From contig NZ_VEXQ01000003.1 of assembly GCF_006376615.1 (NCBI RefSeq), forward strand, positions 248,001 to 312,000: DNA of 64,000 nt. Reading direction: 5' to 3'. Numbering within the stretch: the stretch's first letter is position 1; each line of letters begins with the position of its first letter. The stretch is from Buttiauxella sp. B2. GTDB lineage: Bacteria > Pseudomonadota > Gammaproteobacteria > Enterobacterales > Enterobacteriaceae. Under the pieces are notes generated by a model. The model made no database searches. It had not been told where the DNA came from and saw only the letters and a list, made by a program, of their open reading frames with translations. The translations under genes and the position numbers were made by a program. Below are positions 11,105 through 62,367 of this stretch, in pieces.

Positions 11105-11588
11105 GGCGCGTTGCAGCATCCTCTCACAGGAGCGTTTCCATCAAGGGCTAAGCAGATAAAAGACGCAGGAGTATACCCTGATTATCTGTTTATTAAACCT
11201 GGATCACAACACACGGGCACTTTATGGTCGATGGCAATTCGTGCCGCTTGTTATACATATGTATCAACAAGATGGGTAACTCTTTGAATTAACAGCTAAC
11301 TCTTTACCCATCAGACCCTTATGGGGCATGAGGGGCTTAGAATGATAATTACTGGTTGAGTATGGCAACTTGTTCCTGGCATCCACCCAGCATACTCACC
11401 CAGTACACGTGTGTTACGTCGAGACTGTTTGATTTGGCGGAATCCCCCTGTTGCTCTGGTTAGCGGCAGGGGGAGGTATATCGGATGAATCTGTTATTGA
11501 AGTTTATGTACGTCTCACTTCAAAGGTGCTGTGCTCGCTATCCTTTTCATTACATATATCCAGGGTTGCAATAAGAACGTGCAATTCT
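11105..11588. promoter_or_regulatory. pncB upstream region with candidate promoter, operator and a hairpin
   Basis: On the minus strand a TATACT hexamer (11,175 to 11,170) is a good -10 for pncB. The perfect inverted repeat GTTTA-T-TAAAC at 11,188-11,198 would cover its -35 region and may be an operator. NadR controls pncB in enterobacteria, but its usual half-site spacing differs. At 11,444-11,473 a 7-bp repeat, CCCCCTG / CAGGGGG, with a 16-nt loop lies downstream of the DAHP synthase gene. It has no T-tract on either strand, so I do not call it a terminator. No gene is seen here. Confidence 0.45.
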
Positions 11589-12992
11589 TTAACGCAATGC
11601 TTTCCCCAGCAGAAATGCTAATTCCAGTGACTGTGCTCGGTTAAGCCGCGGATCACATGAGCTTAAATAACGGTAAGATAAATCGCGATCATCAATATGT
11701 TGCAACCCTCCGGTACACTCAGTGACATCCCCTCCCGTCATTTCAAGATGAAGGCAACCAGGATGCATGCCTTCCTCCCGCAGCAACCTAATAAAACGCT
11801 GGGCCTCCTCTACTATGCTGGTAAAGCTGCGGGTTTTATGTCCTGAAAAAGTGTTGCGAGTATTTCCATGCATGGGATCTATGGCCCAAATAACCGGATG
11901 ACCGCTCATGCGGGCCGCGTGTAACAATGGCGGGAGTTTTTCATCGATTTTGTCGTTCCCCATTCTGGCGATCAACACGATTTTTCCCAGCTGTTTATCA
12001 GGGTCTATGATTGTTAACAGTGCAAGTAAACGCTCTGTTGTCATATTTGGACCGCACTTGATACCAACTGGGTTTCCGATGCCACGCAAATACTCAACAT
12101 GTGCGCCATCGGGATCACCGGTTCGCTCACCAAGCCATAACATATGCGCTGAACAGTTATACCAAGTGCCATCTACCGCATCTTTGCGAGTCATCGCCTC
12201 TTCGTAATGTAATAAAAGCGCTTCATGACTGATGAACAATGGCCGACCGGCATAATCATCGCGGACATGACGATGGTAACTGCCGTGCAGTTGCTCGCGC
12301 ATCAGGTGATAATAATTGTCAGAATCCCCGCGTCGGTCTGGGGAGAAATTAGGTTCTGTGAAGTCAGGAAAAACGGACGTATTCATCGCACGCAGCAAGT
12401 TCACGGTCACGGCTGCGTGATAATAGGCTCGGAGCATACGTTGAGGGTCAGGGATGCGATCCTGAAGTGAAAAGTCCTGACCATTAATAATATCACCACG
12501 ATAACTGGGCAGTGTCACCCCATCACGAGTCTCCTCTTGTTGGCTACGTGGCTTGGCAAACTGCCCTGCAATACGCCCTAACTTGACTACTGGTAGTCCG
12601 GTGGACTCGTGAATTAAACCTGCCATTTGTGCCATGGTCAGGCAATGATCGCGGATGGTGGTCGCCTGACAACCATCGAAAGATTCCGCACAATCGCCAC
12701 CCTGCAGCAAAAACGCTTTCCCTTCAGCAACCTGAACCATCTGATGGCGAAACTGGCGGATTTCTGTTGCGAGTAGTAACGGTGGGCTAGACCGTAATTG
12801 GCGTTCATAATCCTGCAAGATGCGCTCATCCGGATACACCGGCAACTGGCTAATGGGGAAATCACGCCAGGAGGCAGGATGCCATTGTCGTGAAACTGAG
12901 AGTGAAAAAGGGTTCATTTCAGTCAGAAACGATACTGGGAAACTTCGATAAGAGTCACCGGTTAGTACATCAATATCACGCTTAAGCAACAT
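11589..12992 (-). CDS. Class II 3-deoxy-D-arabino-heptulosonate 7-phosphate (DAHP) synthase
   Basis: Catalyses the first shikimate-pathway step, condensing phosphoenolpyruvate with erythrose 4-phosphate. This is the plant/actinobacterial/phenazine-cluster (class II) type, unrelated at sequence level to the E. coli AroF/G/H enzymes. Diagnostic blocks are LLQGGDCAESF (residues 95-105), KLGRIAGQFAKPRS, GNPVGIKCGPN, IARMGNDKI and WAIDPMHGNTRN. The start at 12,992 is chosen because AGGAG lies four bases before that ATG; it gives 467 residues. A shorter protein from MNPFSLSVSRQ (12,917) would look more like typical family N-termini but has no clear ribosome binding site. It is last in the four-gene operon. 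A dedicated DAHP synthase beside prephenate-processing genes suggests extra carbon supply for a secondary product. Confidence 0.92.
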   Translation of the reverse strand: MLLKRDIDVLTGDSYRSFPVSFLTEMNPFSLSVSRQWHPASWRDFPISQLPVYPDERILQDYERQLRSSPPLLLATEIRQFRHQMVQVAEGKAFLLQGGDCAESFDGCQATTIRDHCLTMAQMAGLIHESTGLPVVKLGRIAGQFAKPRSQQEETRDGVTLPSYRGDIINGQDFSLQDRIPDPQRMLRAYYHAAVTVNLLRAMNTSVFPDFTEPNFSPDRRGDSDNYYHLMREQLHGSYHRHVRDDYAGRPLFISHEALLLHYEEAMTRKDAVDGTWYNCSAHMLWLGERTGDPDGAHVEYLRGIGNPVGIKCGPNMTTERLLALLTIIDPDKQLGKIVLIARMGNDKIDEKLPPLLHAARMSGHPVIWAIDPMHGNTRNTFSGHKTRSFTSIVEEAQRFIRLLREEGMHPGCLHLEMTGGDVTECTGGLQHIDDRDLSYRYLSSCDPRLNRAQSLELAFLLGKALR

Positions 12993-13046
12993 GTATCTCC
13001 TAGGAAAAGACAACAGCAAACGTTGGCATGTGCGCCAGCAGTGGTT

Positions 13047-13445
13047 TTATTTTGCCGTCTGGGAGCGGGTCAGATAGGTTTCTATAACGCCGTTTTGTCG
13101 GGCCACATAGTCTTCCCGTACTGGCGTGTAAACGTCGATAACTTCTGAGGTCTCTAGTGCTTCTGCATGGTGAACAGCCCATGATGGAATGATGAACGTA
13201 TCACCGGCGTGTAGATAAACAGTACGACCGTCAACATTCAGACGTAATGAACCTTTGAGAATGGTGGTGGCTGTTTCATGTTCATGCTGATGCTCAGGGA
13301 TTTGGGCACCTGTTTTGAACTGCCAAAAAGCGATAGTAAAATCTGTACCGTGTACAAATTTCGCTTGGATCTTACTTTCTGTCCCCTCTGGTCGATTCAG
13401 ATCCATGTCGTAAGAAATCATGTCTTTATTCAGATATAAACTCAT
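13047..13445 (-). CDS. Single-domain cupin protein, possibly a BacB-like isomerase
   Basis: A 132-residue small beta-barrel (cupin) protein. Motif 1 reads GAQIPEHQHEHETATTILKG, giving the metal ligands His-x-His plus Glu. Motif 2 reads GDTFIIPSWAVHH, giving the last His. It is therefore probably a metal-binding enzyme. It has a good ribosome binding site (AAGGA, nine bases before the ATG). It lies between the prephenate decarboxylase-like gene and the DAHP synthase gene. In the bacilysin pathway a cupin (BacB, a double cupin) follows BacA and shifts the double bonds of the dihydro-hydroxyphenylpyruvate product; this protein may do the same, by context only. Generic cupin roles such as dioxygenase or epimerase cannot be excluded. 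Confidence 0.8.
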   Translation of the reverse strand: MSLYLNKDMISYDMDLNRPEGTESKIQAKFVHGTDFTIAFWQFKTGAQIPEHQHEHETATTILKGSLRLNVDGRTVYLHAGDTFIIPSWAVHHAEALETSEVIDVYTPVREDYVARQNGVIETYLTRSQTAK

Positions 13446-13491
13446 TATTTAATTTCCTTTTAAAATACGTATTAATAAACGAAACGTAGGT

Positions 13492-14031
13492 TTATAAAGA
13501 TTGTTTTACTTTTGCATGAATGGAAAAACCCATCGGGACTGGGCCAAAATCAGCCAGAATATTAAGCTGGCATTGCTGAGCGGCAAGTAATGTGGTTATA
13601 CAACCATCAACAGTGCCTGCCGCACACTGTTTTGCCGCCTCACTATTCGAATTAAATAATTCAATAGCTACATTCTTATCAACACCTTTAATTTGATGAA
13701 TTAAATCCTGAGGTGCAGGGTGAGAACCAACACTTTTTATTTTTCTGACGTTATCCAGTCGACTGGCGAGCAACATATTATGTGTATCCATCACAAAACA
13801 GTCGATGAGCTTGAGGTGCTGTAAATTTTTGAAAACAAGATGATGCAAATATGGGTATACGATACACCCTAGCAGAACATCATTATTCTCATTCTGTTCC
13901 ATATATTTTGCGGCGGATTCCAGCGTCTGGTGAAGTCTCACTTCGCCTCCCTGGTTATTATTTTCCAACCAGAGATGGGCAGCTTTTTCGCAATTGGTTC
14001 CCGCCGGTCCTAATGTATGAACGGTTATCAT
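13492..14031 (-). CDS. Prephenate decarboxylase-like protein (BacA type, prephenate dehydratase fold)
   Basis: A 179-residue protein consisting of a single prephenate dehydratase (PDT) domain with no chorismate mutase or ACT domain. It opens with TVHTLGPAGTNCEKAA, like PDT (LGPEGT) and closely like Bacillus BacA. The second lobe contains FNSNSEAAKQCAAGTVDGCI. Where dehydratases carry the catalytic Thr-Arg-Phe, it reads PMGFSIH (residues 166-172), similar to the PMSWSLF of BacA. This argues for non-aromatising decarboxylation of prephenate rather than phenylpyruvate formation. A ribosome binding site, AAGGA, lies five bases before the ATG. It is the second gene of the operon, 24 bp after the RraA-like gene. 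By eye it is richer in A+T than the flanking core genes. Confidence 0.82.
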   Translation of the reverse strand: MITVHTLGPAGTNCEKAAHLWLENNNQGGEVRLHQTLESAAKYMEQNENNDVLLGCIVYPYLHHLVFKNLQHLKLIDCFVMDTHNMLLASRLDNVRKIKSVGSHPAPQDLIHQIKGVDKNVAIELFNSNSEAAKQCAAGTVDGCITTLLAAQQCQLNILADFGPVPMGFSIHAKVKQSL

Positions 14032-14055
14032 GACAGTCCTTAATTAATAATAAGA

Positions 14056-14757
14056 TTAAATACGGCCGGTAAAATTAATCAATTCTGGTAGTCGTTCGCC
14101 TGCTCTGATTTTTTCCAACATGGTATTTTCAGTACTGTCAATGGCCAACGCTTTCTCCATAACCTCAACAATAGCGGAGGCTGGTACTACAGCTACCCCA
14201 TTGGCATCAACGATAATTAAATCACCGCTATGAACAGTGATATGTTCAATCAAACAGTGAGTACCTGTTTCGGCTACCAAATACGCCCCTTGGGTATCCG
14301 TCGGTATCGGATTGCTGGCCAGAACTGGCATATTCAGCATTTTGAGCTCCTTCATATCGCGCACCGCCCCCCCTAAAATGACACCGGAAAAACCCATTTT
14401 TTCGAAGTAAGTACAGCTCATCCCGCCAGCCAGCGCGGCCTCCGTGATAAGTTCACCTCCGCCTGCTACATAAACCAGCCCATCGGCATACTCAAGTTCG
14501 GGAACCAGAAATGCTTTGACCTGTTCCCACGTTGACGGTTGACGCTGCAGAATGTCACTGCCTTTACGCACCATTTTCCAGCTAACGGTATAGGCCTGTG
14601 CTACGAGATATGGTTCATCGCCATTAATAGCACGTATTTTTGAGGTTAATACGTTGCCGGTGCCCATCCCATCGAGAATATCTACCACAGTAGATGTACT
14701 TATTTTTCTTTCTCGAAACACCGCCAAAATATTTTTAGGTAATCGTTCAAAATTCAT
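14056..14757 (-). CDS. RraA / 4-hydroxy-4-methyl-2-oxoglutarate aldolase-like protein
   Basis: A 233-residue member of the RraA-like fold family, which includes HMG/CHA aldolases, oxaloacetate decarboxylases and the RNase E inhibitor RraA. The start at MNFERLPKN (14,757) follows GGAG at five bases. The frame is open 33 codons further without support. The metal/substrate signature GGAVRDMKEL (residues 129-138) keeps the Arg133-Asp134 pair used by the aldolases, so an enzyme is more likely than an RraA-type regulator. The second conserved region is YADGLVYVAGGGE...AALAGGMS. It is the first gene of the operon. Its substrate is unknown; a retro-aldol or decarboxylation step on a prephenate-derived keto acid is an inference from context. 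Confidence 0.8.
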   Translation of the reverse strand: MNFERLPKNILAVFRERKISTSTVVDILDGMGTGNVLTSKIRAINGDEPYLVAQAYTVSWKMVRKGSDILQRQPSTWEQVKAFLVPELEYADGLVYVAGGGELITEAALAGGMSCTYFEKMGFSGVILGGAVRDMKELKMLNMPVLASNPIPTDTQGAYLVAETGTHCLIEHITVHSGDLIIVDANGVAVVPASAIVEVMEKALAIDSTENTMLEKIRAGERLPELINFTGRI

Positions 14758-15609
14758 AACAACTCCGGTCCTTAAGTTTATCAGAGCATGATGTAGATAT
14801 TCATACACCTTCTTTTTGCGCTGAAATTCCATGTCATATGCATGTTTAAAAAACAAGATCTGATTTAATAACAGAGCATGAAATTCAAAGCACTCTAACT
14901 AATAGTGTGGGCTTGGTAATTATCAAATATTGTAAACCTGGGCGATGATATGAGATATAAATCATTAACAAACTAATCTATAACGTTTCTTCCTTGTGGA
15001 TTGTTTTTTATTGAAACAACCAGAAATGAAAATTCACACATTTTATTTCATTTAATTCCAACGTGTTTTGCAGTAACGGTTTTTTGTGTTTAAGGATGGG
15101 AAATGTTGCTTCAGGTGATGGTTCTGAAGTAGATCATTAGCATGCTAACCTATAACAATTAGTCAGTGTGGGTGTATTTATTTAGATAATTAAAAGTTAA
15201 TAAAAAGCACTTTTTGATCTACGCCGAAGTTATTATTTTATGGAATGATGTTTTGTTTTTAAAACACATATGAATTATTAATGCGGTGGTTAGTTCATTC
15301 TGAACGGGTTATCGCCATGTTGCTCAAACGTGTGTTGAAGATGGATTATGAAAATATAAACAGTGGCATTTGAGTTAACTATTCGCACTGACCATCAGAT
15401 ACTCGTACTGCAAACAGCCCATCAGTACTGGTCGTTTTCACGAACACATCGATATCAGGATGGTTCCAACTGAGAGGAAGGGGTCATCTCTTCTTTATGT
15501 AGCAATTCATGTGAGAAGCCCAGAAAAGATGATGATTCTGCGTGGCAACATTCGAGCAACAGGAATAGACTGAACTCCGCAAACTTACGGATGATGTATA
15601 AGGTTTTTT
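14758..15609. promoter_or_regulatory. Long AT-rich gap between the four-gene operon and pepN
   Basis: An 850-bp non-coding stretch, strongly AT-rich between about 14,860 and 15,300. It must hold the promoter of the minus-strand operon and, nearer 15,500-15,600, that of pepN. I could not place sigma-70 hexamers with confidence. The word AGTGTGGG occurs twice, near 14,905 and near 15,165, each preceded by an AT-rich TAAT/ATTAG segment; these may be paired binding sites. No open frame with coding character and no tRNA or IS remnant is seen. Confidence 0.4.
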
Positions 15610-18222
15610 ATGACACAACAGCCACAAGCCAAATATCGCCACGACTACCGTGCGCCGGATTACACGATTACCGATATCGATTTGACCTTTGACCTTGATG
15701 CCACAAAAACCCTGGTCACTGCTATTAGCCAAATTAGCCGGCAGGGCGCAGCAGATGCGTCTTTGCGTCTTGATGGTGAAGATCTGACGCTGGTTTCTAT
15801 CGATGTTAACGGTGCTGCCTGGGAGCATTATCGCCAGGAAGAGGGCGCATTGATTATTGAATCATTGCCAGAGACCTTCACGCTGACCATCGTTAACGAA
15901 ATCAGCCCTGCGACCAATACCGCGTTGGAAGGTCTTTATCTCTCCGGCGATGCGCTTTGCACACAATGCGAGGCCGAGGGTTTCCGCCATATTACCTGGT
16001 ATCTTGACCGACCAGATGTTCTGGCGCGTTTCACCACCAAAATCATTGCTGATAAAACCCAGTATCCTTTCCTTTTATCTAACGGTAATCGCATTGCCGA
16101 AGGTGAACTGGACAACGGTCGTCATTGGGTGCAATGGCAAGATCCTTTCCCAAAACCTTGCTACCTGTTTGCGCTGGTGGCGGGTGATTTCGATGTTCTT
16201 CGCGATACCTTCAAAACGCGTTCAGGCCGGGATGTGGCACTAGAGTTATTTGTCGACCGTGGCAATCTTGACCGCGCAAGCTGGGCGATGACTTCTCTGA
16301 AAGCGTCAATGAAGTGGGATGAAACCCGTTTCGGTCTTGAGTACGACCTCGACATTTATATGATTGTCGCCGTGGACTTCTTCAACATGGGCGCGATGGA
16401 GAATAAAGGACTGAACGTCTTTAACTCCAAATATGTTCTGGCGCGTGCTGAAACGGCAACCGATAAAGACTACCTCGACATCGAACGTGTTATTGGCCAC
16501 GAATACTTCCATAACTGGACCGGTAACCGTGTGACTTGCCGCGACTGGTTCCAGTTAAGCCTGAAAGAAGGGCTGACCGTATTCCGCGATCAAGAATTTA
16601 GTTCCGACCTTGGCTCACGCGCAGTAAACCGCATTCAAAACGTGCGCACCATGCGTGCAATGCAGTTTGCTGAGGATGCAAGCCCGATGGCACACCCAAT
16701 TCGCCCGGATAAAGTTATTGAAATGAATAACTTCTATACGTTGACGGTATATGAAAAGGGTTCTGAAGTTATCCGTATGCTGCACACGTTACTGGGCGAA
16801 GAGAGTTTCCAGAAAGGGATGCAACTCTACTTTGAACGCCATGATGGCAGCGCTGCGACCTGCGATGACTTTGTTCAGGCAATGGAAGATGCGTCAAACG
16901 TTGACCTGTCCCATTTCCGCCGTTGGTACAGCCAGGCGGGCACGCCAGTGGTTACCGTGCATGATGACTACGACCCAGAAAATGAGCTGTATACGCTGAC
17001 CATCAGCCAGGCCACGCCGCCAACCGCTGAGCAACAGGAAAAACACCCGCTGCATATTCCGTTCGATATCGAACTGTATGACAACGAAGGTAAAGTGATT
17101 CCGTTGCAAAAAAATGGCCACCCGATTCACCATGTACTGAATGTGACTCAGGCCGAGCAGACGTTTGTCTTTGATAACGTCTATTTCCAGCCTGTTCCGT
17201 CATTGTTGCGTGAATTCTCAGCACCGGTGAAACTGGAATACAAATGGAGCGACCAGCAACTGACGTTTCTGATGCGCCATGCTCGCAACGATTTTTCCCG
17301 TTGGGACGCTGCGCAAAGCCTGTTGGCAACCTACATCAAACTGAATGTAAACCGTAGCCAACAGGGCCAGCCTCTGTCACTGCCATTACATGTTGCTGAT
17401 GCATTCCGTGCAATTTTGCTGGATGAGAAGATTGACCCGGCTCTGGCAGCAGAAATTCTGACGCTGCCATCGCAAAACGAAATTGCTGAACTGTTCCAGA
17501 AAATCGACCCACAGGCGATTGCCGCGGTGCATGCAGCGTTAACCCGTACACTGGCAAACGAATTGGCTGACGAATTCCTGGCGGTGTACAACGCTAACAA
17601 ACTCGATGAGTATCGCGTTGAACATGCGGATATCGGCAAACGCGCTTTGCGTAACACCTGCTTGCGTTATCTGGCCTTTGGCGAGAAACAGCTTGCTGAG
17701 CAACTGGTGCGTAATCAGTATCAAAGTGCAGACAACATGACGGATTCTATTGCCGCCTTGTCTGCCTCAGTTGCGGCGCAATTGCCTTGCCGTACAGAGC
17801 TGCTGGCTGCATTTGATGAGAAATGGCATCAGGACGGTTTGGTCATGGACAAGTGGTTTGTCTTGCAAGCGACGAGCCCGGCGACTGATACGTTGAGCAA
17901 AGTGCGTGAGTTGCTGAACCACCGTTCATTTAGCATGGGTAACCCGAACCGCGTTCGTTCGTTGATTGGCGCGTTTGCAGCGGGCAACCCGGCGGCGTTC
18001 CATGCGCTCGATGGCAGCGGCTATCAATTTATGGTGGAAATGCTCAGCGAGCTAAACCACCGTAACCCGCAGGTAGCGTCACGTTTGATTGAGCCGTTAA
18101 TTCGACTGAAACGTTACGATGCAAAACGTCAGGAAATGATGCGTGCGGCACTGGAACAGCTGAAAGGGCTGGAAAACTTGTCGGGTGATTTGTTCGAGAA
18201 AATCACTAAAGCATTGGCGTAG
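15610..18222 (+). CDS. pepN: Aminopeptidase N
   Basis: Cytosolic M1-family zinc aminopeptidase, the main broad-specificity aminopeptidase of enterobacteria, completing peptide degradation after Lon and Clp. It has 870 residues, as in E. coli. The exopeptidase motif GAMEN is at residues 261-265, and the zinc motif HEYFH at 297-301 with the third ligand Glu320 in LKEGLTV. The start MTQQPQAKYRHDYRAPDY is conserved, with AAGG ahead of it. It is convergent with the ssu operon, sharing a bidirectional hairpin. Confidence 0.98.
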   Translation: MTQQPQAKYRHDYRAPDYTITDIDLTFDLDATKTLVTAISQISRQGAADASLRLDGEDLTLVSIDVNGAAWEHYRQEEGALIIESLPETFTLTIVNEISPATNTALEGLYLSGDALCTQCEAEGFRHITWYLDRPDVLARFTTKIIADKTQYPFLLSNGNRIAEGELDNGRHWVQWQDPFPKPCYLFALVAGDFDVLRDTFKTRSGRDVALELFVDRGNLDRASWAMTSLKASMKWDETRFGLEYDLDIYMIVAVDFFNMGAMENKGLNVFNSKYVLARAETATDKDYLDIERVIGHEYFHNWTGNRVTCRDWFQLSLKEGLTVFRDQEFSSDLGSRAVNRIQNVRTMRAMQFAEDASPMAHPIRPDKVIEMNNFYTLTVYEKGSEVIRMLHTLLGEESFQKGMQLYFERHDGSAATCDDFVQAMEDASNVDLSHFRRWYSQAGTPVVTVHDDYDPENELYTLTISQATPPTAEQQEKHPLHIPFDIELYDNEGKVIPLQKNGHPIHHVLNVTQAEQTFVFDNVYFQPVPSLLREFSAPVKLEYKWSDQQLTFLMRHARNDFSRWDAAQSLLATYIKLNVNRSQQGQPLSLPLHVADAFRAILLDEKIDPALAAEILTLPSQNEIAELFQKIDPQAIAAVHAALTRTLANELADEFLAVYNANKLDEYRVEHADIGKRALRNTCLRYLAFGEKQLAEQLVRNQYQSADNMTDSIAALSASVAAQLPCRTELLAAFDEKWHQDGLVMDKWFVLQATSPATDTLSKVRELLNHRSFSMGNPNRVRSLIGAFAAGNPAAFHALDGSGYQFMVEMLSELNHRNPQVASRLIEPLIRLKRYDAKRQEMMRAALEQLKGLENLSGDLFEKITKALA

Positions 18223-52710: not shown

Positions 52711-55700
52711 TCAGAAGCGAATCTTCATACCAACCGACCCACCAAAATCATTACTGATGCTGGTATTGCTGCCACCGTTGCTCCAGGTTTTACCGACTTC
52801 GGTATAAGCTTCGGCATTTTTGGCGATAGTCCAGGTAGCACCCACAGCCGCTTGCGTGCTGCTGTATTGCTGATCCGAAGATACCACTGATTTTCCAGCA
52901 TTATTCGTGGTGTTCTCAAACGTTGCGTTATCCTGCCCATTGGAAAGCTGTTGCCACAAATTCACCCGTACGTAAGGTTTCACCTTGCCGACGTTGGTTT
53001 CATATTCTGCTCCCAAACGCGCACCAATGCGGCCGATGATGGCATCATCTGCATCAATGGACGCACGAGTTTTCGCATCACCTTCCAGAATCACACTATC
53101 AAAATCACTGTGCTGCCAGATGAGTTGCGCCTGCGGTTCGATAAACCAGGTAGTATCGCCAAAGAGAATTGGGTAACCCGTTTCAACCGAGGCGATAAAG
53201 CTGTTGCCATCAGGGCTGTAAGTATTTTGATTTTGTGCGTTCTTCAAATCGATGCTGTGGTTGCCGTACTGCAATACGTTATCAACATAGAAACCGCTTT
53301 GTGCGGTGTAGGTCGCATAACCGCCGACATATACCGACAGGGTAGAGTTATAACCCGCCGTACCGTAGCCACCAGAATTTGCGCCCTGAACGCTGGTGTC
53401 ATCGTCCACAATCGAGGTGTACATCCCAGCACGCCAGTCTTCATCAACATACAAATCGAAACCAATCTGCATACCATTAATCTGCGAATCAGCCTGCGAG
53501 CCTGTGGCATCGTTAAATGACTGATGGGTGGATTGCGTGATATAGCGTGCCCAGAAACGCTGGTCATTGTCTTGTGCCACGGTGGTATTCCACGGCTGTT
53601 CGTCGCCCACGCGTTGGTGCAACGTACCCAGAACCGCTAAATCTGCCTGGCGGACAGTTGAGGCGACGGTGTTAAAGATAGGCACTTCCGGACGATAACT
53701 GGCACGCAGGAACCAATCTTCACCTTGCCCCTGGCTGTTTCCAGCGAACAAACGGTATTCCCAGGCACCGGCTTCAAGGTGATCCGCGCCAATGGTAAAT
53801 GCATCTTTGGTGGTTTGCGCTGTGGTCGTCGCACCGTTAATCGCTTCTACCACCGCGATACCGTCACCTTCGGTCTGTTCACCAAGCTGGCTGACGTCGA
53901 TATCCAACAACGTTCTACCTGTAGCGGCACCGCCGTTGATCACCAACCGATCGGCAACGCCTGGGCTATGTTGCTGTGCTGCAATTTTCAGCACACCGTT
54001 AAGCCCAACATAATCACCATTTACTGTCAGGGTTGATCCCACATCACCGCCACGCAGATTCACCGTGCCCTGGTTTGCCAGTGCGCCAACGGTCTGGTTA
54101 TCGCCGCCGGTATCCAGCGTCGCACCGCTGCTGACGATATGCGTTGAAGCCGCGCTGAGTTTATTTACCCCCTGAGCTTTCAGGGTGCCATTTTCTACCA
54201 GCGTAATGCCCTGGTAATTATTACTACCAGCAAGAATTGTGGTGCCAGAACCTTGCTGCCAGAGTTGGCCGGTGCCGGAGATATTGCCGCCCAGCGTTAA
54301 GCTATTGGAGCGGTTAATTTGCAGCACACCGTTATCAATAATATTGGCTATAACGCTACCCTGGGTGCTGCCGGTACCCAATTGCAAATTGCCGGCACGA
54401 ATGGTGGTATCACCGGTGTAAGTACTGTCCTGGCTGAGTGTTAGCGTACCGAGTCCGGCTTTGGTCAGCGCGCCAGTTCCGCTTGCCGCACCCAGCAGGG
54501 TTACGTTATTGCCGTTGGTATCAACAGTGCCGCCGTTTGCGGCGAGCGTCACAGCACGGGCGGTATCGAACGCCGCTCCGTAGCGGAATGTACCACCATT
54601 AAGCACAATTCCTGTTCCAGCCTGGCCGAGGTTGCTATCGCTGGCAACTTGCAAAGTACCGCCGCTGACCGTAGTGCCACCTGCATAGGTATTGTTGCCA
54701 TTAAGCAGCAGTGTTCCGATATCAGTTTTGTCTATGCCGCCGCTGCCTGCGATAACTGAGTTAATGGTGGCGATGTAGTTTGCTCCAGGAGCCGTGCCAT
54801 CACCCACGCGAATCTGCGTATCTGCAGTGTTGGTGGTTATCGTGCCGTCGTTGATGACGTAACCGTCTGTGGCGAATTGCATCCCGCTAACCCGCACCTC
54901 GCCAAGCGAATTGTCCACCGTGACTGTGCCTTTTTCACCGCCGAATATCGCAAACGATCCGTCGCTGAATGGTGCATTGAAGCGCCCATCCGGTGTGGTG
55001 ACATCCGTTGACCAGTTATCGTTGCCGTGGCTGTTTTGCCATACGCCATCGCCACCGTTAATCTCGCCGTTGTTTTTGGATGCGGTGAGGTTGCCGTCCC
55101 AGAAACGCAGAATAACGCCAGTGCGGTTGACCAGGTTTACCTGCCCGGCAATAGAGGTTTGAACGTACAGATCATCCGCAGCATCCGGCGCGATGCCGAT
55201 ATCCATGATGTTATTCGTCAGGCTGCCTGTGTAGTTAAACACGCGATAAATCCCGACATCGAAAGTGCCACCGGGGGTTTGCGTGATATTGAGTTTGCCG
55301 TTGAGGTTCAGATCGCCGTTGATATTCACCAGATCGTTAAGCACACCGCCCGCTGTAAACGACTGACCAAACTGGAAATCCACCTGGGAATTTTGATTCA
55401 GGGCTAACCCGCCTAAGGTTAATACGCCAACACTCGCTAAATCAGCCCCCGCAGCAAGATGCCCGTCGTCGGCAACCGTCACTTTTCCGCCAATGACGCC
55501 CGCTCCTCCAAGAGTGGACAGGGTGCTTACGTTCACATCACCCGTTGCTGCCAACTGGTTACCATTTACCAACAATGTGCCTTGCTGCACCGTGGTTTGG
55601 CCGGTGTAAGTGTTGTCTCCGGTCAGCGTCAAAATACCGCTACCGATTTTGCTCAGCACGCCACCTACACCGCTAATTACACCGCTAATCAAATCATCAC

Positions 55701-58700
55701 GATTAAGTGAACCTTCGCTGAGCGTTTTGCTTCCCAGCTCAACATTGCCCGCACCCGATAGCGAGCCGATGGTGGTGCCGCTACTGGTGTTTGCAAGATT
55801 CACCACGCCGCCTGCGTTATTGGTAATCACGGCGTCCTGCGCTTGTGCGCTATCGGTGAAAGTCACCAGGCCGTTGTTAGTTACCGTAGCGCTACCCGCA
55901 TTGGACTGCTCACTGAGATTCAATTGCGTTCCGGCAGCAAGGTTAATCTGCGCGGCACCGCCAGAGGAGGTATCACCAAGATTAATCATCGCGCCATTTG
56001 CGGCGTTGATTGTGCTATTAGCCGCGGATGCGCTACCAGTGAAGTTAAGTGTTGCGTCATCAAGTGCCACAGAATGCGACTGGGCCGTCGCGCTATTATT
56101 GAAGTTTAATGTGGCCTGATGATTCACCGTCAATGTGCTGATATCCGGGCCTAATGCACCCGTGACATTGGCATCAACTACCACTTGCGCAGTGCCATCT
56201 TTACCGGTGATGGTGGTTGCGCCCTGATAAGTCGTCGCGTTATTGAGCACCAGATTGCTGTCGTCGGTGCCGGTTGAAGTATCTTTAATTGTCAGCCCAC
56301 CAAGCCCGCCAATCACCCCGTCTGGCGTGAACGTAAGGCCATAAAGATCGAACTGCCCGCCACCTGTTTCACTCAGGAAAATAGGGCGCGTGGTGGTGTA
56401 ATTCGCGCCAATTTGCAGCACGGAGTTGTTATTAATCAGAATCGATGTGCCTGCAAGCCCGAGGTTGGCGTCGGTAGAGACATTCAGTGTGCCGGCATAG
56501 ATCTCGGTACCACCTTCATAATCATTATTGCCGGTTAAAATCAGGCGACCAGGATCGAGTTTGACCAGTTTCAACCTCTCGAGGGGGTTATTCTGATGCA
56601 GGTCGGTATTAATCGTCGTGGTGATATCTCCACCGCTGGCACCTGCTCCAACGCGTATACCGAAGTATGCAGTGGCGAGAGTTTCACCCTGATTGGCATA
56701 ATTGATTGAAGGGATTTGACTGGTAGTGCGTGCGATATTCAGCGTACCGCCAAGCAGTAAATAGCCATCGGTATCAAACTGCATCCCAGAGGTAACGACC
56801 GAACCGTTACTATCGTCCACCACTACGGTACCACTGATACCCTGGAATATAGCGAACGCCTGTTGCTGCCACGGTGCGTTTCCGATCCCAGTAGAAGATG
56901 TCCATTTATTTTCGTTTACCCCTATGGTGGAACGCCATATCCCATTTCCTCCATTAATAATGCCATTACCTTCAATGCCAGTAGCACCATGGTTAGCAAC
57001 ATCATCGCCGTCCCAATACTGCAGATTAGCTGAACCCCTAGGGAAGCCCTCTACCAGATTTACCTGATTTGGCAGTGTGGTTTGCACTGAATAAATGGTG
57101 GAGTTACCTGGTGGCAGCGAAATAATATCCAGCCCATTATTGGTGAGCGAACCGGCGTATTCGAACAGACGGTACAAACCCGGCGCGAAAATACCACCCG
57201 CTGACAAGGTCACGTTCAGGTCACCGTCCAGCGTCAAATTGCCGCCCACGGTCACCAGGTCGTTTAATGCACCACCTGAGGTAAACGGCTGCCCTAATTC
57301 AAATTTGTTGTTAGTATCGGACGCAAGCGTTAAATCACCTTTGATAGCCAGCGTGCCTGTACCGCCGTCACCCGGCGTTAACGTGGTGCCATTGGCAAAG
57401 GTGACACTGCCACCAATGGTGCCCGAGCCGCCGAGTGTGGCTCCGCTGGCAACGGAAGTTGCGCCTGTAGCACCTGACTGATCACCGTTTACCAGCAACG
57501 TGCCGCTGTTTACCTGAGTGACACCCTGATAAGTATTGGCACCGCTTAACCGAGTCACCCCAGTGCCAATCTGGTGAAATTCACCGCTGCCAGAGATAAC
57601 GCCGCCAAGGTTAACGGTATCTGACTGGTTGATAATAAAAATACCGTTATCAATGATATTTGTGGCCGCAGAAAGCGCACCTGCCGTGCCGCCGGTACCG
57701 AGTTGCAATGTGCCGCCAGTGTCGATGAGTGTATTGCCGCTGTAGGTGTTTTCTCCGGTCAGGATTGTGGTGCCGCTTGCTGCGCGCTCCAGTTCACCCG
57801 TACCGCTGATTATCCCCGTATACAGTTGTGATGCAGAGGTGCCATCGAAAACGACCCGGCTCGTTGGTCCGTCGGTTGCGATGTTGTAGTTATTGATGGT
57901 GGCGTTATTCGCTGTAACCAGATTGTCGCCTGTGCGTAACGTGCCGCCGTCAGTGACAGCAATAGAAGGCGTGCCCGATAACAGCAGATTGTTAACAACG
58001 CGGACATTAGCCTGTGTTCCGCTAACCGTTAAGTTGCTCCAGCCGGTGCCGATATTGGTTGCTGTGGCCACGTCATCTGTTGTCAGGGTACCAATTCGCG
58101 TTGGGCCAGCACCGCCATTCCACAGATTCGTATTGGTCAGCGTCAGCTGATTATTACTGCCACCTTCGCTGAGAATGTGGCGAGTTGCGCCAAGATCGAC
58201 GTTACCTATCAGTGCCTTATCATTGCCATCGCCCCCCGTGAAATCTACCGCACCGTCGAAGGTGCCGCTATTCCAGGTGAAGGTGTCGCTGCCACTGCCC
58301 GCAGCAATCAGTCCCGTTGTCGCACCGCCGTTAAGCGTAATTAAATCGTTACCGCTACCGGATAAAATCGCCGTTGACGTATTGTTGGCAGCACTGAGGA
58401 TGTTCTGGTTGGTAATGGTATTGTTGGCACTGCCACTGGCATCAATCACGACCGAGTTTGGGCTACTATCGGTAATCGTTCCGCTGTTAAGAATGGTGCG
58501 CGCCGCAGCACTGCCGTTAATGCGGATCAGTGGTTGTGAGTTAGTGGTGCTGGTGGAATTAATGGTGCCGGTGTTGGTAAAGGCTGCGGCGTTGGTTGCC
58601 AGAATGCTGCTGTTGACGTCGCCGCTGGTCTGAATATTACCACTGTTGGTCACAGCGTTCGCATCAATGGCTGAAATCGCAGCACCTCCGTTTGAGCCCA

Positions 58701-61700
58701 CGGTGATGTTAGCTCCCGATGTCACCGCGCCGTTAGTTTTCGCCAGAATACCGTTGCCATTGGACGCGCTCGTTCCCGTCACATTGATGGTGTAGCCGTT
58801 ACCGATGGTGAGATTGCCGGTAGTATTGCTGCCATCGGCCTGTTCAAAAGCAAAGCCCGCACCGCTGCCGGAAACATTGAGGATATTTCCACTCCCTTCG
58901 GCATTAAAGGTGACGGCAGTGCGGATTGCCGGGCCGTCTGAAGCGTTGACGGTAACCGTGTTTAAATTGATGTTTGAGGTGGCCGCGTTGTTGTTAATGC
59001 CGGCACCTGTGCCAGAAATATCAATCACCGTATTCTGGGCAGTGAGTGATGAAGCACCGGCATCCATACGAATACCATCTGCGCCATTGCTGGCGGTAAT
59101 GTGGTTCCCGGAGCCATTAATTGTAAGAGAGGCCCCGTCATCAATAAGCTGAACAGCGGCAAGGCCACCGTTGGCTGTAACGTTGCCCAGTTGTGTAACC
59201 TGTGCGCCAGCACCCTGTACTTTCACACCGACGTTGCCGCTGTTCGCAGCCCCTGTGACGCTTATCGCTCCAGTGTTAGTCAACGTGCCCTGGTTCTGGA
59301 TATGTACGCCGATATTATTCGCACCTGATACCGAAATGGGCGCGTTATTCAACCCTGTACCGCCGTCATGCAAAAGCACGCCAGTGCTGTTGGTACCGTT
59401 AAGGTTGATGCCCGCGCCGTTGAGCGTGACCACGCCTTTATAAGAGACGTCATAGCCGGTAATACCGCTTTGCAACACGCCGGATGTGAGTGCGACGTCT
59501 GAAGTGACCACTGTCGAAAGTGCATCGCCAGCCGAACTAATATTGCCATCAATGGTGTAAATACGTCCGTCAACTACCACGCCGGTCGTGTTGTTATGGG
59601 AAAGGATAATCCCGCCGTTGTTGATAGTCCCCGTCGCGCCACCTGCGACTTTCACCCCCACGGCATTTTCGCCATTTACCGTGATAGTCGCGGTGCCGGT
59701 ATTGAGCATAGAAGGCACATCATCGGCGGTGTCCATTTGCCCATCAGGGCCATCATCACGCCCGTGGGCGAATACGCCAATGGAACTATCACCGGTGACG
59801 GTAAGTTGATATGCGCCACCTCCGCCAGAGTTACCGTCAAACGTGGCACCATGGTCGATTAAAAACAGAGTGGAATGCGCCTGTCCGTTATCGTCAATCA
59901 CTGCATTGGCAAGATTAATCCTGGCACTCTGGCCGTAGGCGTAATAGCCAATTTGGTTGGTGTTATTAAAGGTTAATGCGGCATCCGAACCAACATTTAT
60001 AGTGGCGCTGCCACGAGCGTGTGCGCCAATGGCACCTGCAGCAAACAGGTTCATGTCCGAGTTGATATCGGCGGTGGCCTGGAAACCCTGCACACCTTCA
60101 GCAAACACCGCGTAGTTACGATAAGTCACCGGGTTATTGTCACTACCACCGGCATCTCCGGCAGCCCCAACGGTAATCACGCCAGAATTTGTTGAAGTGA
60201 CCGCCGCAGCCTTGGTCGATGCGAGCACGTTGATGGCAGCGTTATTGTCACCAAAAACGTTAATACGACCGTTATTCGTTACATTGTTGGTATCAATAAC
60301 GGACAGTCCGTAGTTGGCCGCCGCTGCGCCACCCGCTAACTGCCCAAGCACGTTAATGACGCCAGTAACGCTGTTGGTGACTGCCCCCGTCGCACCACTC
60401 ACCAATATGCCTACGGCATTGCGGGTTTGCCCACCGAGAGTAATCGTCCCGTTGTTAGTGACGGCTCCGCTACTGCTGGTATGAATGCCTGCCGACTGCT
60501 GTGCGCCGCCGACCATGAGCACTGGTGAGTAGATTTTTGTGGCGGTAATCGGTGTGCTACCAATGAAAATATTGCCGGAATTGGTGTTGGCGAAGGTTGA
60601 TGCATCGGCTATATCGACGGCATAACCCGAGGCGCGTCCGTCAACATTAAAGCTATTGCCAACCACCGCAATGGTGCCGCTGTTGCTCGCGGTTGTAGTC
60701 CCTTGAGCCCGCAAACCGTAGGCATTAGCGGAGCTGCCATCGGTTAGCGCAACGTTAATATATCCTTCGTTGGTGAGTGTGCTGGCACCATCACCCTGGA
60801 TTGCGGTGCTGCCCTGGTTATGCACATTTTGATTGGTGCCATCTTTTTCGATGAACAGGCCTGCGTTGATTGTTCCGGTATTGAGCGCGGTAGCGTTGGT
60901 GGTTCGCATCCCAACACCGGAAGGGCTGGCACTGGAACTGCGCCAGATGTTAATTGTCCCGTTGTTGGTCAACACGGCATTGGTATCGCCGCGCATCACG
61001 GCAGAGGCTCCGTCTACGGCCAGGCTACCTTCAGCGGTTACCGTACCTGTCGCGTTAGCACCTGTGGCATAAATAATATCGAGATTACCGGTGCCCAGCG
61101 TGGCGTTATTGTTATGAGCCAGGCCGTCGTCCCAAACGTGATAGGTCAAATCAACCCGGTTATTCACTTCATCACCCAACAAACTTTGAATGATGCCGTT
61201 GTAGGTATTTTGCGCGATGGTGCTGGAATCAATCACCACACTGCCGTAAGCCGGGGGAAGTTGTACGCCACCCGTGAGCCAAAGCTGCACCTGGCTTTGA
61301 CGGCCAGCATAGGCGCCTTGCCCCAGTAAGAAATCATTCACCGTTGCAATATCTAGCGCTGAATTAATGGGAAAGGTGATGGAGGTTTGTACTGGATCCA
61401 AAATGACCTGCTGCCCAACCTGAATGTAGTTAGGTAGCGTAATGCTATCGTTGTATTTGGAGCTGACCGCAGTCTCGTTTTGCAAATCAGTTGCAATTAC
61501 TAAGGCAGGCATAAAGTGAATATAGTTATCTGACTGCCAGTTCACGTGGCTATCAGCAGTGCTTGTCCCTTGTGCCCTGGCAAGCGTTGAGTTTTTCGCC
61601 AGTAGTTCAATTGTGTTTGCCGCCGCGGATATTGGCGTTGTTCCGGCAGTATCCGCCCCGATATTAATATTGGCCGTGCCGCCTTCAGGGGCGATATCAA

Positions 61701-62367
61701 CAATGCCGAAATTGTTATAGATGCGGAAAGAGTGGGAGTCGTAAATATTTAGCGGTAGATCGCCCACCAATGACGTACCAGGGGCTGAAAAAGTGCTGGA
61801 ATCATACACTTTGATAACCGAGTCGCTTCCTTCAAGCCCGGGAACTACAACGTTGAGTTCCTGGTTTTGCTGCGGCACTGAAGGGTTGGTGGAATAGCTA
61901 AAGTTATCAATATTGGCGGAGGTAATGGGCGTTATAACACCTTGAGAATCGGTTGCCTGGATAAATGTAATTCTTGGCCCCGTACTGCTTGCCAGCCCAT
62001 CACGAACCAACATCTGCGTGGCGCTGCCGTTAACGCCCGGGGCAATCTGTGGGATTGGCCCGAGGATATTGAGCGTAGTACCTGGGGCATAGTGATTGAG
62101 CGCGGGGGTGTTATCTATGGTGAAAGCAAAACCGGTATCAATCACTTGATCGTAGTTAACCAGGACCGGAAATCCATAAGAAGGATAAGCGTCGGCCCAG
62201 TTGATATCGTCAGCAAAAGCGGGAAGTGCTGTGAGAAATAAAGAGGCACTCAGCAATGCTGTTTGTGTTGCCCGGCCTTTGCATTTTTTTCGTGTTTTCG
62301 TCGTCTCTGGGGCGACAACGAATGCATTTTGGCTTGGGTTCCATACCAGACGATAGATACGATTCAT
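52711..62367 (-). CDS. Giant type Va autotransporter adhesin-like protein (3,218 residues)
   Basis: A surface autotransporter. The N-terminus MNRIYRLVWNPSQNAFVVAP is the extended signal peptide region (ESPR) of large autotransporters, with cleavage near AFA-DD (about residue 53). Residues about 430-1,400 are full of short NxGTIxVxG-type strands predicting a beta-helix. Passenger-associated transport repeats (GxxTYxGxTxVxxGTL) occur near 1,535, 1,610, 1,945, 2,245, 2,555, 2,640 and 2,710. A module of about 175 residues is present twice (about 1,690-1,870 and 2,335-2,510). The C-terminal barrel runs from about 2,935 (RFWARYITQS) to the final VGMKIRF. No serine-protease GDSG motif is seen. GGAG lies seven bases before the ATG. 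It starts 69 bp after the DUF4239-like gene. Confidence 0.9.
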   Translation of the reverse strand: MNRIYRLVWNPSQNAFVVAPETTKTRKKCKGRATQTALLSASLFLTALPAFADDINWADAYPSYGFPVLVNYDQVIDTGFAFTIDNTPALNHYAPGTTLNILGPIPQIAPGVNGSATQMLVRDGLASSTGPRITFIQATDSQGVITPITSANIDNFSYSTNPSVPQQNQELNVVVPGLEGSDSVIKVYDSSTFSAPGTSLVGDLPLNIYDSHSFRIYNNFGIVDIAPEGGTANINIGADTAGTTPISAAANTIELLAKNSTLARAQGTSTADSHVNWQSDNYIHFMPALVIATDLQNETAVSSKYNDSITLPNYIQVGQQVILDPVQTSITFPINSALDIATVNDFLLGQGAYAGRQSQVQLWLTGGVQLPPAYGSVVIDSSTIAQNTYNGIIQSLLGDEVNNRVDLTYHVWDDGLAHNNNATLGTGNLDIIYATGANATGTVTAEGSLAVDGASAVMRGDTNAVLTNNGTINIWRSSSASPSGVGMRTTNATALNTGTINAGLFIEKDGTNQNVHNQGSTAIQGDGASTLTNEGYINVALTDGSSANAYGLRAQGTTTASNSGTIAVVGNSFNVDGRASGYAVDIADASTFANTNSGNIFIGSTPITATKIYSPVLMVGGAQQSAGIHTSSSGAVTNNGTITLGGQTRNAVGILVSGATGAVTNSVTGVINVLGQLAGGAAAANYGLSVIDTNNVTNNGRINVFGDNNAAINVLASTKAAAVTSTNSGVITVGAAGDAGGSDNNPVTYRNYAVFAEGVQGFQATADINSDMNLFAAGAIGAHARGSATINVGSDAALTFNNTNQIGYYAYGQSARINLANAVIDDNGQAHSTLFLIDHGATFDGNSGGGGAYQLTVTGDSSIGVFAHGRDDGPDGQMDTADDVPSMLNTGTATITVNGENAVGVKVAGGATGTINNGGIILSHNNTTGVVVDGRIYTIDGNISSAGDALSTVVTSDVALTSGVLQSGITGYDVSYKGVVTLNGAGINLNGTNSTGVLLHDGGTGLNNAPISVSGANNIGVHIQNQGTLTNTGAISVTGAANSGNVGVKVQGAGAQVTQLGNVTANGGLAAVQLIDDGASLTINGSGNHITASNGADGIRMDAGASSLTAQNTVIDISGTGAGINNNAATSNINLNTVTVNASDGPAIRTAVTFNAEGSGNILNVSGSGAGFAFEQADGSNTTGNLTIGNGYTINVTGTSASNGNGILAKTNGAVTSGANITVGSNGGAAISAIDANAVTNSGNIQTSGDVNSSILATNAAAFTNTGTINSTSTTNSQPLIRINGSAAARTILNSGTITDSSPNSVVIDASGSANNTITNQNILSAANNTSTAILSGSGNDLITLNGGATTGLIAAGSGSDTFTWNSGTFDGAVDFTGGDGNDKALIGNVDLGATRHILSEGGSNNQLTLTNTNLWNGGAGPTRIGTLTTDDVATATNIGTGWSNLTVSGTQANVRVVNNLLLSGTPSIAVTDGGTLRTGDNLVTANNATINNYNIATDGPTSRVVFDGTSASQLYTGIISGTGELERAASGTTILTGENTYSGNTLIDTGGTLQLGTGGTAGALSAATNIIDNGIFIINQSDTVNLGGVISGSGEFHQIGTGVTRLSGANTYQGVTQVNSGTLLVNGDQSGATGATSVASGATLGGSGTIGGSVTFANGTTLTPGDGGTGTLAIKGDLTLASDTNNKFELGQPFTSGGALNDLVTVGGNLTLDGDLNVTLSAGGIFAPGLYRLFEYAGSLTNNGLDIISLPPGNSTIYSVQTTLPNQVNLVEGFPRGSANLQYWDGDDVANHGATGIEGNGIINGGNGIWRSTIGVNENKWTSSTGIGNAPWQQQAFAIFQGISGTVVVDDSNGSVVTSGMQFDTDGYLLLGGTLNIARTTSQIPSINYANQGETLATAYFGIRVGAGASGGDITTTINTDLHQNNPLERLKLVKLDPGRLILTGNNDYEGGTEIYAGTLNVSTDANLGLAGTSILINNNSVLQIGANYTTTRPIFLSETGGGQFDLYGLTFTPDGVIGGLGGLTIKDTSTGTDDSNLVLNNATTYQGATTITGKDGTAQVVVDANVTGALGPDISTLTVNHQATLNFNNSATAQSHSVALDDATLNFTGSASAANSTINAANGAMINLGDTSSGGAAQINLAAGTQLNLSEQSNAGSATVTNNGLVTFTDSAQAQDAVITNNAGGVVNLANTSSGTTIGSLSGAGNVELGSKTLSEGSLNRDDLISGVISGVGGVLSKIGSGILTLTGDNTYTGQTTVQQGTLLVNGNQLAATGDVNVSTLSTLGGAGVIGGKVTVADDGHLAAGADLASVGVLTLGGLALNQNSQVDFQFGQSFTAGGVLNDLVNINGDLNLNGKLNITQTPGGTFDVGIYRVFNYTGSLTNNIMDIGIAPDAADDLYVQTSIAGQVNLVNRTGVILRFWDGNLTASKNNGEINGGDGVWQNSHGNDNWSTDVTTPDGRFNAPFSDGSFAIFGGEKGTVTVDNSLGEVRVSGMQFATDGYVINDGTITTNTADTQIRVGDGTAPGANYIATINSVIAGSGGIDKTDIGTLLLNGNNTYAGGTTVSGGTLQVASDSNLGQAGTGIVLNGGTFRYGAAFDTARAVTLAANGGTVDTNGNNVTLLGAASGTGALTKAGLGTLTLSQDSTYTGDTTIRAGNLQLGTGSTQGSVIANIIDNGVLQINRSNSLTLGGNISGTGQLWQQGSGTTILAGSNNYQGITLVENGTLKAQGVNKLSAASTHIVSSGATLDTGGDNQTVGALANQGTVNLRGGDVGSTLTVNGDYVGLNGVLKIAAQQHSPGVADRLVINGGAATGRTLLDIDVSQLGEQTEGDGIAVVEAINGATTTAQTTKDAFTIGADHLEAGAWEYRLFAGNSQGQGEDWFLRASYRPEVPIFNTVASTVRQADLAVLGTLHQRVGDEQPWNTTVAQDNDQRFWARYITQSTHQSFNDATGSQADSQINGMQIGFDLYVDEDWRAGMYTSIVDDDTSVQGANSGGYGTAGYNSTLSVYVGGYATYTAQSGFYVDNVLQYGNHSIDLKNAQNQNTYSPDGNSFIASVETGYPILFGDTTWFIEPQAQLIWQHSDFDSVILEGDAKTRASIDADDAIIGRIGARLGAEYETNVGKVKPYVRVNLWQQLSNGQDNATFENTTNNAGKSVVSSDQQYSSTQAAVGATWTIAKNAEAYTEVGKTWSNGGSNTSISNDFGGSVGMKIRF

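Follow-up and report, generated by a model that had tools for sequence, protein, structure and literature searches.

Two described systems are among the closest to the locus reported here. In bacilysin synthesis, BacA decarboxylates prephenate without aromatisation and is followed by the 235-residue protein BacB (BacA/BacB chemistry as given in the available text of PMC9147277). TdaC is encoded in the tropodithietic acid (tda) cluster of Phaeobacter and is part of the pathway to a sulfur-containing antibiotic; its role is called obscure in the accessible portion of a 2020 review. The genome of Buttiauxella sp. B2 carries a four-gene operon that would be a variant of known systems diverting prephenate and not something categorically new. 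It lies on a 64,000-nucleotide stretch (contig NZ_VEXQ01000003.1, positions 248,001 to 312,000), here called the window, and encodes an RraA-like protein, a prephenate dehydratase-like (PDT-like) protein, a single cupin, and a class II 3-deoxy-D-arabino-heptulosonate 7-phosphate (DAHP) synthase. Judged from sequence, the four genes apparently constitute a horizontally moving biosynthetic cassette that was inserted into this genome. The comparisons below demonstrate its structure as a unit, the absence of the insertion from congeners, the recurrence of the genes as a block, the loss of dehydratase motifs from the PDT-like protein, and conserved, catalytic-looking motifs in the other three proteins. 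The cassette is very small, apparently mobile, and present in the common genera Proteus, Providencia, Serratia, and Aeromonas; no published description of this gene set was found in the open-licence PubMed Central literature, as judged by listings.

The PDT-like protein is the closest cousin of TdaC seen here (47.6% identity, with the stretches TNCE, YPxLH, and FGPVPMxF(S/T)IH in common), and a four-gene system may offer an easier route to TdaC-type function than the whole tropodithietic acid pathway. TdaC has LysR, glutathione S-transferase, thioesterase, and acyl-CoA dehydrogenase genes as neighbours, whereas the cassette instead holds cupin, RraA-like, and DAHP synthase genes; only the four genes, and no counterparts of tdaB, tdaD, tdaE, or tdaF, were met among the insert's larger open frames. 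The likeness to BacA-BacB lies in the grouping of BacA-type and TdaC-type proteins apart from PheA, in their shared lack of the TRF motif, and in a cupin gene that follows the PDT-like gene. The differences are an identity of only 25 to 32% to three BacA-type proteins (two annotated as BacA and one from Streptomyces), a cupin of 132 residues in place of one of BacB length, and an insert whose large open frames include no BacC to BacG. Further clusters with the same type of PDT-like protein occur in Pantoea, Staphylococcus xylosus, Pseudoalteromonas, and Serpentinimonas (45 to 53% identity for these four records) and in genome G981. Those of Pseudoalteromonas, Pantoea, Serpentinimonas, and G981 carry DUF6421, the family of the Fe/pterin oxidase PolE according to the available part of PMC12614342, with varying aminotransferase, ATP-grasp, and exporter genes, none of which are in the cassette; the S. 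xylosus cluster, whose stretch ends at the record edge, has ATP-grasp and drug/metabolite transporter genes that the cassette likewise lacks.

The four genes and their products

The genes are, in the order of their reading direction:

14056-14757, minus strand: RraA-like protein gene, 233 residues
13492-14031, minus strand: PDT-like protein gene, TdaC-type, 179 residues, with TNCE, YPxLH, and FGPVPMGFSIH and with neither TRF nor PxEN(S/T)
13047-13445, minus strand: single cupin gene, 132 residues, with P(E/Q)HxHxHE, PSW(A/S)xH, and DVYTPxRED stretches in 12 of 12 loci
11589-12992, minus strand: class II DAHP synthase gene, 467 residues

Open reading frames and Pfam matches confirm the four minus-strand genes that an earlier note on this DNA had named, and its intergenic gaps of 24, 46, and 54 bp are exact. 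The ribosome binding sites it had proposed were also seen by eye, with GGAG, AAGGA, AAGGA, and AGGAG preceding the four ATG codons in gene order; the DAHP synthase start was taken at the ATG behind AGGAG (12992), the longest start in the open reading frame list being 13019. The claim of one operon stands as far as spacing and a gene order conserved in all 12 loci are concerned. We infer a single transcript from these two features because promoter-like sites (11 versus 10.3 in shuffled sequences) and terminator-like sites (6 versus 4.0) between 11100 and 15620 are not above chance. All four proteins exceed their Pfam cut-offs (RraA-like, 71.7 bits against 24.5; PDT, PF00800, 38.1 against 25.2; Cupin_2, 55.2 against 27.2; DAHP_synth_2, PF01474, 546 against 27). 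All four stay below the cut-offs of the NCBIfam models listed for them, so each looks divergent within its family.

The TRF motif is important for dehydratase catalysis. It is absent from all 19 PDT-like proteins aligned and present in 25 of 29 PheA domains, and the PxEN(S/T) loop is likewise found in none of the 19 and in 23 of the 29 (a filtered reference used instead of 40 unfiltered frames). The genes from loci L057, L058, L087, and L088 stand outside this alignment and the tree, and the broken gene of L009 was omitted from both; a separate motif check of L087, L088, and the open part of L009 found no TRF. In a local profile-profile alignment of PDT-like proteins with PheA (E = 1.8e-15), a gap falls at the PxENTS loop, and MGF is placed, weakly, under TRF in the global alignment only. 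The host's own pheA is a 410-residue open frame with TRF, and the PDT-like protein is 18% identical to host PheA. The earlier note had called the protein BacA-type. Its loss of dehydratase motifs agrees with that assignment, whereas its sequence is instead TdaC-type: it carries TNCE and VPMGFSIH and not TSSE or IxMxWSVF, the BacA-type motifs as defined here from the three BacA-type proteins, and its identity to TdaC exceeds that to these three. A tree, which used 12 of the 29 PheA domains, left out 17, and has long branches, joins the TdaC-type and BacA-type proteins (100/100) apart from PheA, and the protein is thus like BacA in being PDT-related, in lacking TRF, and in grouping away from PheA.

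Relatives of the PDT-like protein were few in the samples searched. Its profile gave no match at E <= 0.01 in the PDB sequences. A class-level search (369 genomes) returned 49 matches, of which 47 were PheA-sized open frames of at least 346 residues; the remaining two were the query gene itself and an incomplete frame at the end of a contig. A phylum-level search (398 genomes) gave three matches at E <= 1e-8: the window's own genome, G878, where the match stands in a tda layout by eye, and G981, where a TdaC-type gene that itself has no Pfam match at E <= 1e-5 lies beside genes for a class IV aminotransferase, DUF6421, and a LysE exporter. In G352 (L059, 8796-9293), a partial, divergent PDT-like frame containing ATLGPEGTNHD lies at a contig end and is neither clearly TdaC-type nor BacA-type.

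A branched-chain or class IV aminotransferase gene stands directly beside the TdaC-type genes of Pseudoalteromonas (L012) and G981 (L058) and beside the BacA-type genes of Pantoea, Pseudomonas, and Streptomyces (L051 to L053). This shared company fits a keto-acid product of both enzyme types that could be converted to amino acids, and it is the best evidence from gene context for such products. For the tda cluster and for Pantoea, S. xylosus, and Serpentinimonas, the stretches read showed no aminotransferase gene next to the TdaC-type gene. The BacA-type genes of L051 to L053 sit in a block with Dabb, AMP-binding/phenylacetate-CoA-ligase-like, branched-chain aminotransferase, and ornithine-cyclodeaminase-like genes, and L051 and L052 also carry DUF2000, carboxymuconolactone decarboxylase, and LysE genes. 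The TdaC-type loci L012, L013, L014, L016, and L058, one of them on a Staphylococcus xylosus plasmid, have DUF6421, except that none was seen in L013, together with different sets of ATP-grasp, aminotransferase, and exporter genes; they are perhaps separate clusters for prephenate-derived amino acids or dipeptides.

The RraA-like protein carries G112-X20-R133-D134-X2-E137, and G-X20-R-D-X2-E/D occurs in 12 of 12 loci (the L007 protein, open only from residue 44, was omitted from the alignment). This motif was reportedly assigned by Mazurkewich in 2014 to metal-dependent pyruvate aldolases of the RraA fold, such as the 4-hydroxy-4-methyl-2-oxoglutarate/4-carboxy-4-hydroxy-2-oxoadipate aldolases. 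In the available text of PMC5065237, two motifs, one or the other of which is present in most homologues, are needed for metal binding and catalysis, and the R123K substitution cripples the P. putida aldolase; the RraA-family enzyme FlDet has dehydratase and decarboxylase activity according to the accessible part of PMC8563752. The protein differs from these enzymes in falling far below the curated RraA equivalog cut-offs of NCBIfam (41.6 against 136 and 23.9 against 241.25) and in the absence of aromatic-cleavage genes among the insert's open frames.

The cupin keeps its histidines and the D-V-Y-T-P-x-R-E-D stretch in all 12 loci. Among proteins of solved structure, it best matches an uncharacterised cupin (4e2g), a cellulose oxidative enzyme, and KdgF, which turns unsaturated uronates into ketonised forms (available text of PMC6344544). 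The stretch aligns with similar ones in KdgF (VIDLFSPRRDD), the cellulose oxidative enzyme, and two uncharacterised cupins. The KdgF match covers residues 23 to 114 of 132 at E = 6e-10, including D-x-(F/Y)-(S/T)-P-x-R-(E/D)-D; no pectin or alginate genes are among the insert's open frames, and a cupin match alone says little on the reaction. The protein is indeed a single cupin; BacB is a weak match to it, ranking 17th of 19.

The DAHP synthase of the window has GGDCAE, GRxAGQxAKPRS, and DPMHGNT, as expected for class II; that of L088 reads 412 residues and lacks the GGDCAE spelling, and the broken genes of L007 and L009 were omitted from the alignment. A likeness to the phenazine-linked type was not supported: the nearest PDB entry is 5uxm (E = 6e-134), and the 405-residue chain 6bmc, whose type we take to be the one linked to phenazines, scores lowest of seven. 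Class II DAHP synthases exceed the cut-off in 34 of 148 genomes of the order, and within the family only in the window's own genome.

Insertion between pncB and pepN and distribution of the gene set

The cassette occupies a segment whose edges are marked by a near-duplication:

11268-15496, no strand: inserted segment between pncB and pepN, about 4.23 kb, G+C content 43.8% (rest of the window, 49.2%)
11259-11267, plus strand: left copy of a 9-bp near-duplication at the insertion edge, 8 of 9 positions identical to 15497-15505
15497-15505, plus strand: right copy at the insertion edge, with one mismatch to the left copy

In each of the 11 other species of the genus that the search covered (12 genomes including the window's own), pncB adjoins pepN, with 252 to 376 bp between the aligned ends. 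The size of the insert follows from the breakpoints in six congeners compared base by base, in which homology to the window stops at 11267 on the left and restarts at 15496-15497 on the right. The insert consists of the four genes, 739 bp of AT-rich upstream DNA, and 321 bp of downstream DNA, with no other open frame of at least 100 residues, and no terminal inverted repeat of at least 6 bp was found between 70 and 75 bp at its edges. Its open frames include no ligase, dehydrogenase, aminotransferase, or exporter, as the earlier note had observed.

The order RraA-like, PDT-like, cupin is kept in all 12 loci found, the window included, and a DAHP synthase gene follows the cupin in 10 of them. 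The homologues thus adjoin one another elsewhere and are not rarely neighbours, and the conserved minimal gene set that the note had supposed was recovered. Besides the window's genome, the loci belong to Yersinia similis, Serratia, Providencia, Proteus, Aeromonas, Acinetobacter, and two further genomes (one of them G1345), a scattered range of gut and water bacteria in which the cassette forms a single block. Nine loci came from a scan of one genome per species for relatives of the PDT-like gene using exact 8-residue seeds, which gives an undercount, and two, besides the own genome, from a cupin search of 295 family genomes; in these 295, the 3 genomes matched by the cupin at E <= 1e-30 are also the only ones that the RraA-like protein matches at E <= 1e-25. 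L011 and NZ_OL790812.1 (Proteus, plasmid collection) show the Proteus locus again and do not enter these counts. The cassette is rare, being present in 1 of 60 relatives and in 1 of 394 genomes of the order at E <= 1e-20, and a distant blastn search of 5,426 E. coli genomes gave no DNA match to the operon.

The flanking genes, read by eye from open reading frames, vary by genus and include acs/actP in Providencia, tpiA and pfkA in Aeromonas, and ackA-pta in G1345. The mobility of the cassette is deduced from these differing neighbours and from the uninterrupted pncB-pepN junction in the 11 congeners. Some copies are decaying: in Providencia alcalifaciens the genes for the PDT-like protein and DAHP synthase are broken, and in P. 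heimbachae those for the RraA-like protein and DAHP synthase. Relative to Y. similis, the ratio of nonsynonymous to synonymous substitution rates (dN/dS) is 0.03 to 0.09 for the three genes present there, and pairwise distances of the four proteins correlate (r = 0.81 to 0.91; 10 loci for three genes and 8 for DAHP synthase, with L007 and L009 excluded from the distance and dN/dS work). The cluster does not look like chance because its order is the same in 12 of 12 loci and dN/dS is low. In Y. similis, an integrase-core transposase gene lies 61 bp behind the cupin gene, the contig ends soon after, and no DAHP synthase gene follows; insertion sequence-type transposase genes (integrase core by Pfam) occupy the place expected for it (L005, 9046-10217).

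Proposed chemistry and alternative readings

Of the readings considered, the likeliest is that the cassette is a mobile kit for non-aromatising decarboxylation of prephenate, isomerisation of the product, and action on its pyruvyl side chain; we regard it as evenly balanced between right and wrong. The class II DAHP synthase would drive carbon into the shikimate pathway, and the host would supply prephenate. The TdaC-type enzyme would decarboxylate prephenate with the ring kept non-aromatic, as BacA does, because it is without the dehydratase TRF threonine and the PxEN loop. The metal cupin could then shift a double bond of the ring so that it is conjugated with the keto acid, or could add water (BacB- or KdgF-like chemistry), and the RraA-like enzyme, of the metal-dependent pyruvate-enolate type, could act on the pyruvyl side chain by retro-aldol cleavage, decarboxylation, or dehydration. 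The product would be a small molecule for which the cassette need not encode a ligase, aminotransferase, or exporter of its own.

Cleavage of the side chain would be consistent with the three enzyme types. In the boldest form, which we consider decidedly unlikely, TdaC-type decarboxylation is followed by cupin isomerisation to a ring-ylidene pyruvate and by hydration and retro-aldol cleavage through the RraA-like aldolase, giving pyruvate and 4-hydroxycyclohex-2-enone; loss of water from the latter could yield phenol. A neutral, diffusible C6 enone would explain, on this interpretation, an insert without aminotransferase, ligase, or exporter genes. If true, such loss of the side chain would lead from prephenate to a C6 compound without passing through tyrosine and would give TdaC-type proteins a function.

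Several observations weigh against the proposed non-aromatising decarboxylation and what follows from it. The activity of every TdaC-type protein is a prediction, identity to the three BacA-type proteins is low, the tree has long branches, and the BacB match of the cupin is weak (E = 6.8e-4). The DAHP synthase is a divergent member of its family, scoring 534.2 against the TIGR01358 equivalog cut-off of 614.7, and Acinetobacter rudis has no DAHP synthase gene within 7.5 kb downstream. The absence of an exporter is uncertain in Serratia (L003, 4613-8856), because a major facilitator superfamily transporter gene (Pfam) stands on the same strand behind the DAHP synthase gene, followed by pobA- and pcaB-like genes (by eye). 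The similar distances of the four proteins would also be expected from common descent with the host. Lastly, the TdaC-type proteins read all have Cys14, Cys144, and His172, which the three BacA-type proteins lack, and this may point to another substrate.

This last difference, together with the near-constant Cys136 (not in Tritonibacter) and His63 (not in L087) and the place of TdaC in a sulfur-containing antibiotic pathway, speaks for TdaC-type enzymes using the PDT fold on something other than prephenate, for example in a cysteine-dependent reaction of a sulfur or tropone pathway, with a cassette product unrelated to prephenate decarboxylation. We consider this possible but somewhat unlikely: a DAHP synthase gene, present in 10 of the 12 cassettes, connects the product with the shikimate pathway, and one TdaC-type gene elsewhere sits in a gene run with DAHP synthase/chorismate mutase. 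It is unlikely that the cassette is instead a precursor booster, in which the PDT-like protein is a real dehydratase making phenylpyruvate that, with the DAHP synthase, raises the supply of phenylalanine or phenylacetate while the cupin and the RraA-like protein modify an aromatic product. The same role is proposed for TdaC by analogy with TrlB/TrlH in the available part of a review (PMC7497051), tropolone clusters of Burkholderia, Trinickia, and Pseudoduganella contain DAHP synthase and prephenate dehydratase according to the accessible text of PMC11481866, and the protein exceeds the Pfam PDT cut-off. Against this stand the TRF and PxEN(S/T) motifs missing from all 19 proteins compared, with the alignment gap and global-only MGF placement already described, the host's own pheA, and the lack of phenylacetate or tropone genes among the insert's open frames; a plain dehydratase was rejected on the loss of its motifs, the booster being kept as an alternative. 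It is extremely improbable that there is no pathway at all, with the RraA-like protein regulating RNase E and the four genes clustered by chance. Such a regulator is suggested by the Pfam family name, in which RraA appears, but was rejected on the NCBIfam equivalog scores; the constant gene order across 12 of 12 loci, which lie at different positions in the chromosome, and the purifying selection also contradict a chance cluster, and the samples searched show the genes together, the opposite of genes found apart as often.

Upstream region and neighbouring features

Two features lie between the operon and pepN within the insert:

14758-15496, minus strand: AT-rich region upstream of the operon, 34% G+C, the presumed promoter region, with no promoter-like site above chance
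15137-15148, no strand: perfect palindrome TTAGCATGCTAA upstream of the operon, a possible operator

The palindrome presumably resembles SlyA-type operators, and an imperfect TTAGTTTGTTAA is found near 14965-14976, also upstream of the operon. With at most one mismatch, the palindrome has 3 strand matches in the window, two of which are the 15137-15148 site, where 0.77 would be expected by chance; 3 or more occurred in 6 of 100 shuffles. An operator common to the loci was rejected, TTAG-N4-CTAA being present in only one (L008) of nine other upstream regions scanned. No known RNA element was found in the operon: the sole Rfam match up to E = 1 between 11100 and 15700 is a sub-threshold PepN thermometer at the pepN start (15484-15639; 33.4 bits against a gathering threshold of 83), and the insert ends at the edge of this match. 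Elsewhere in the window, at 52711-62367, a minus-strand open frame of 3,218 residues has a signal-like start and appears adhesin-like by eye.

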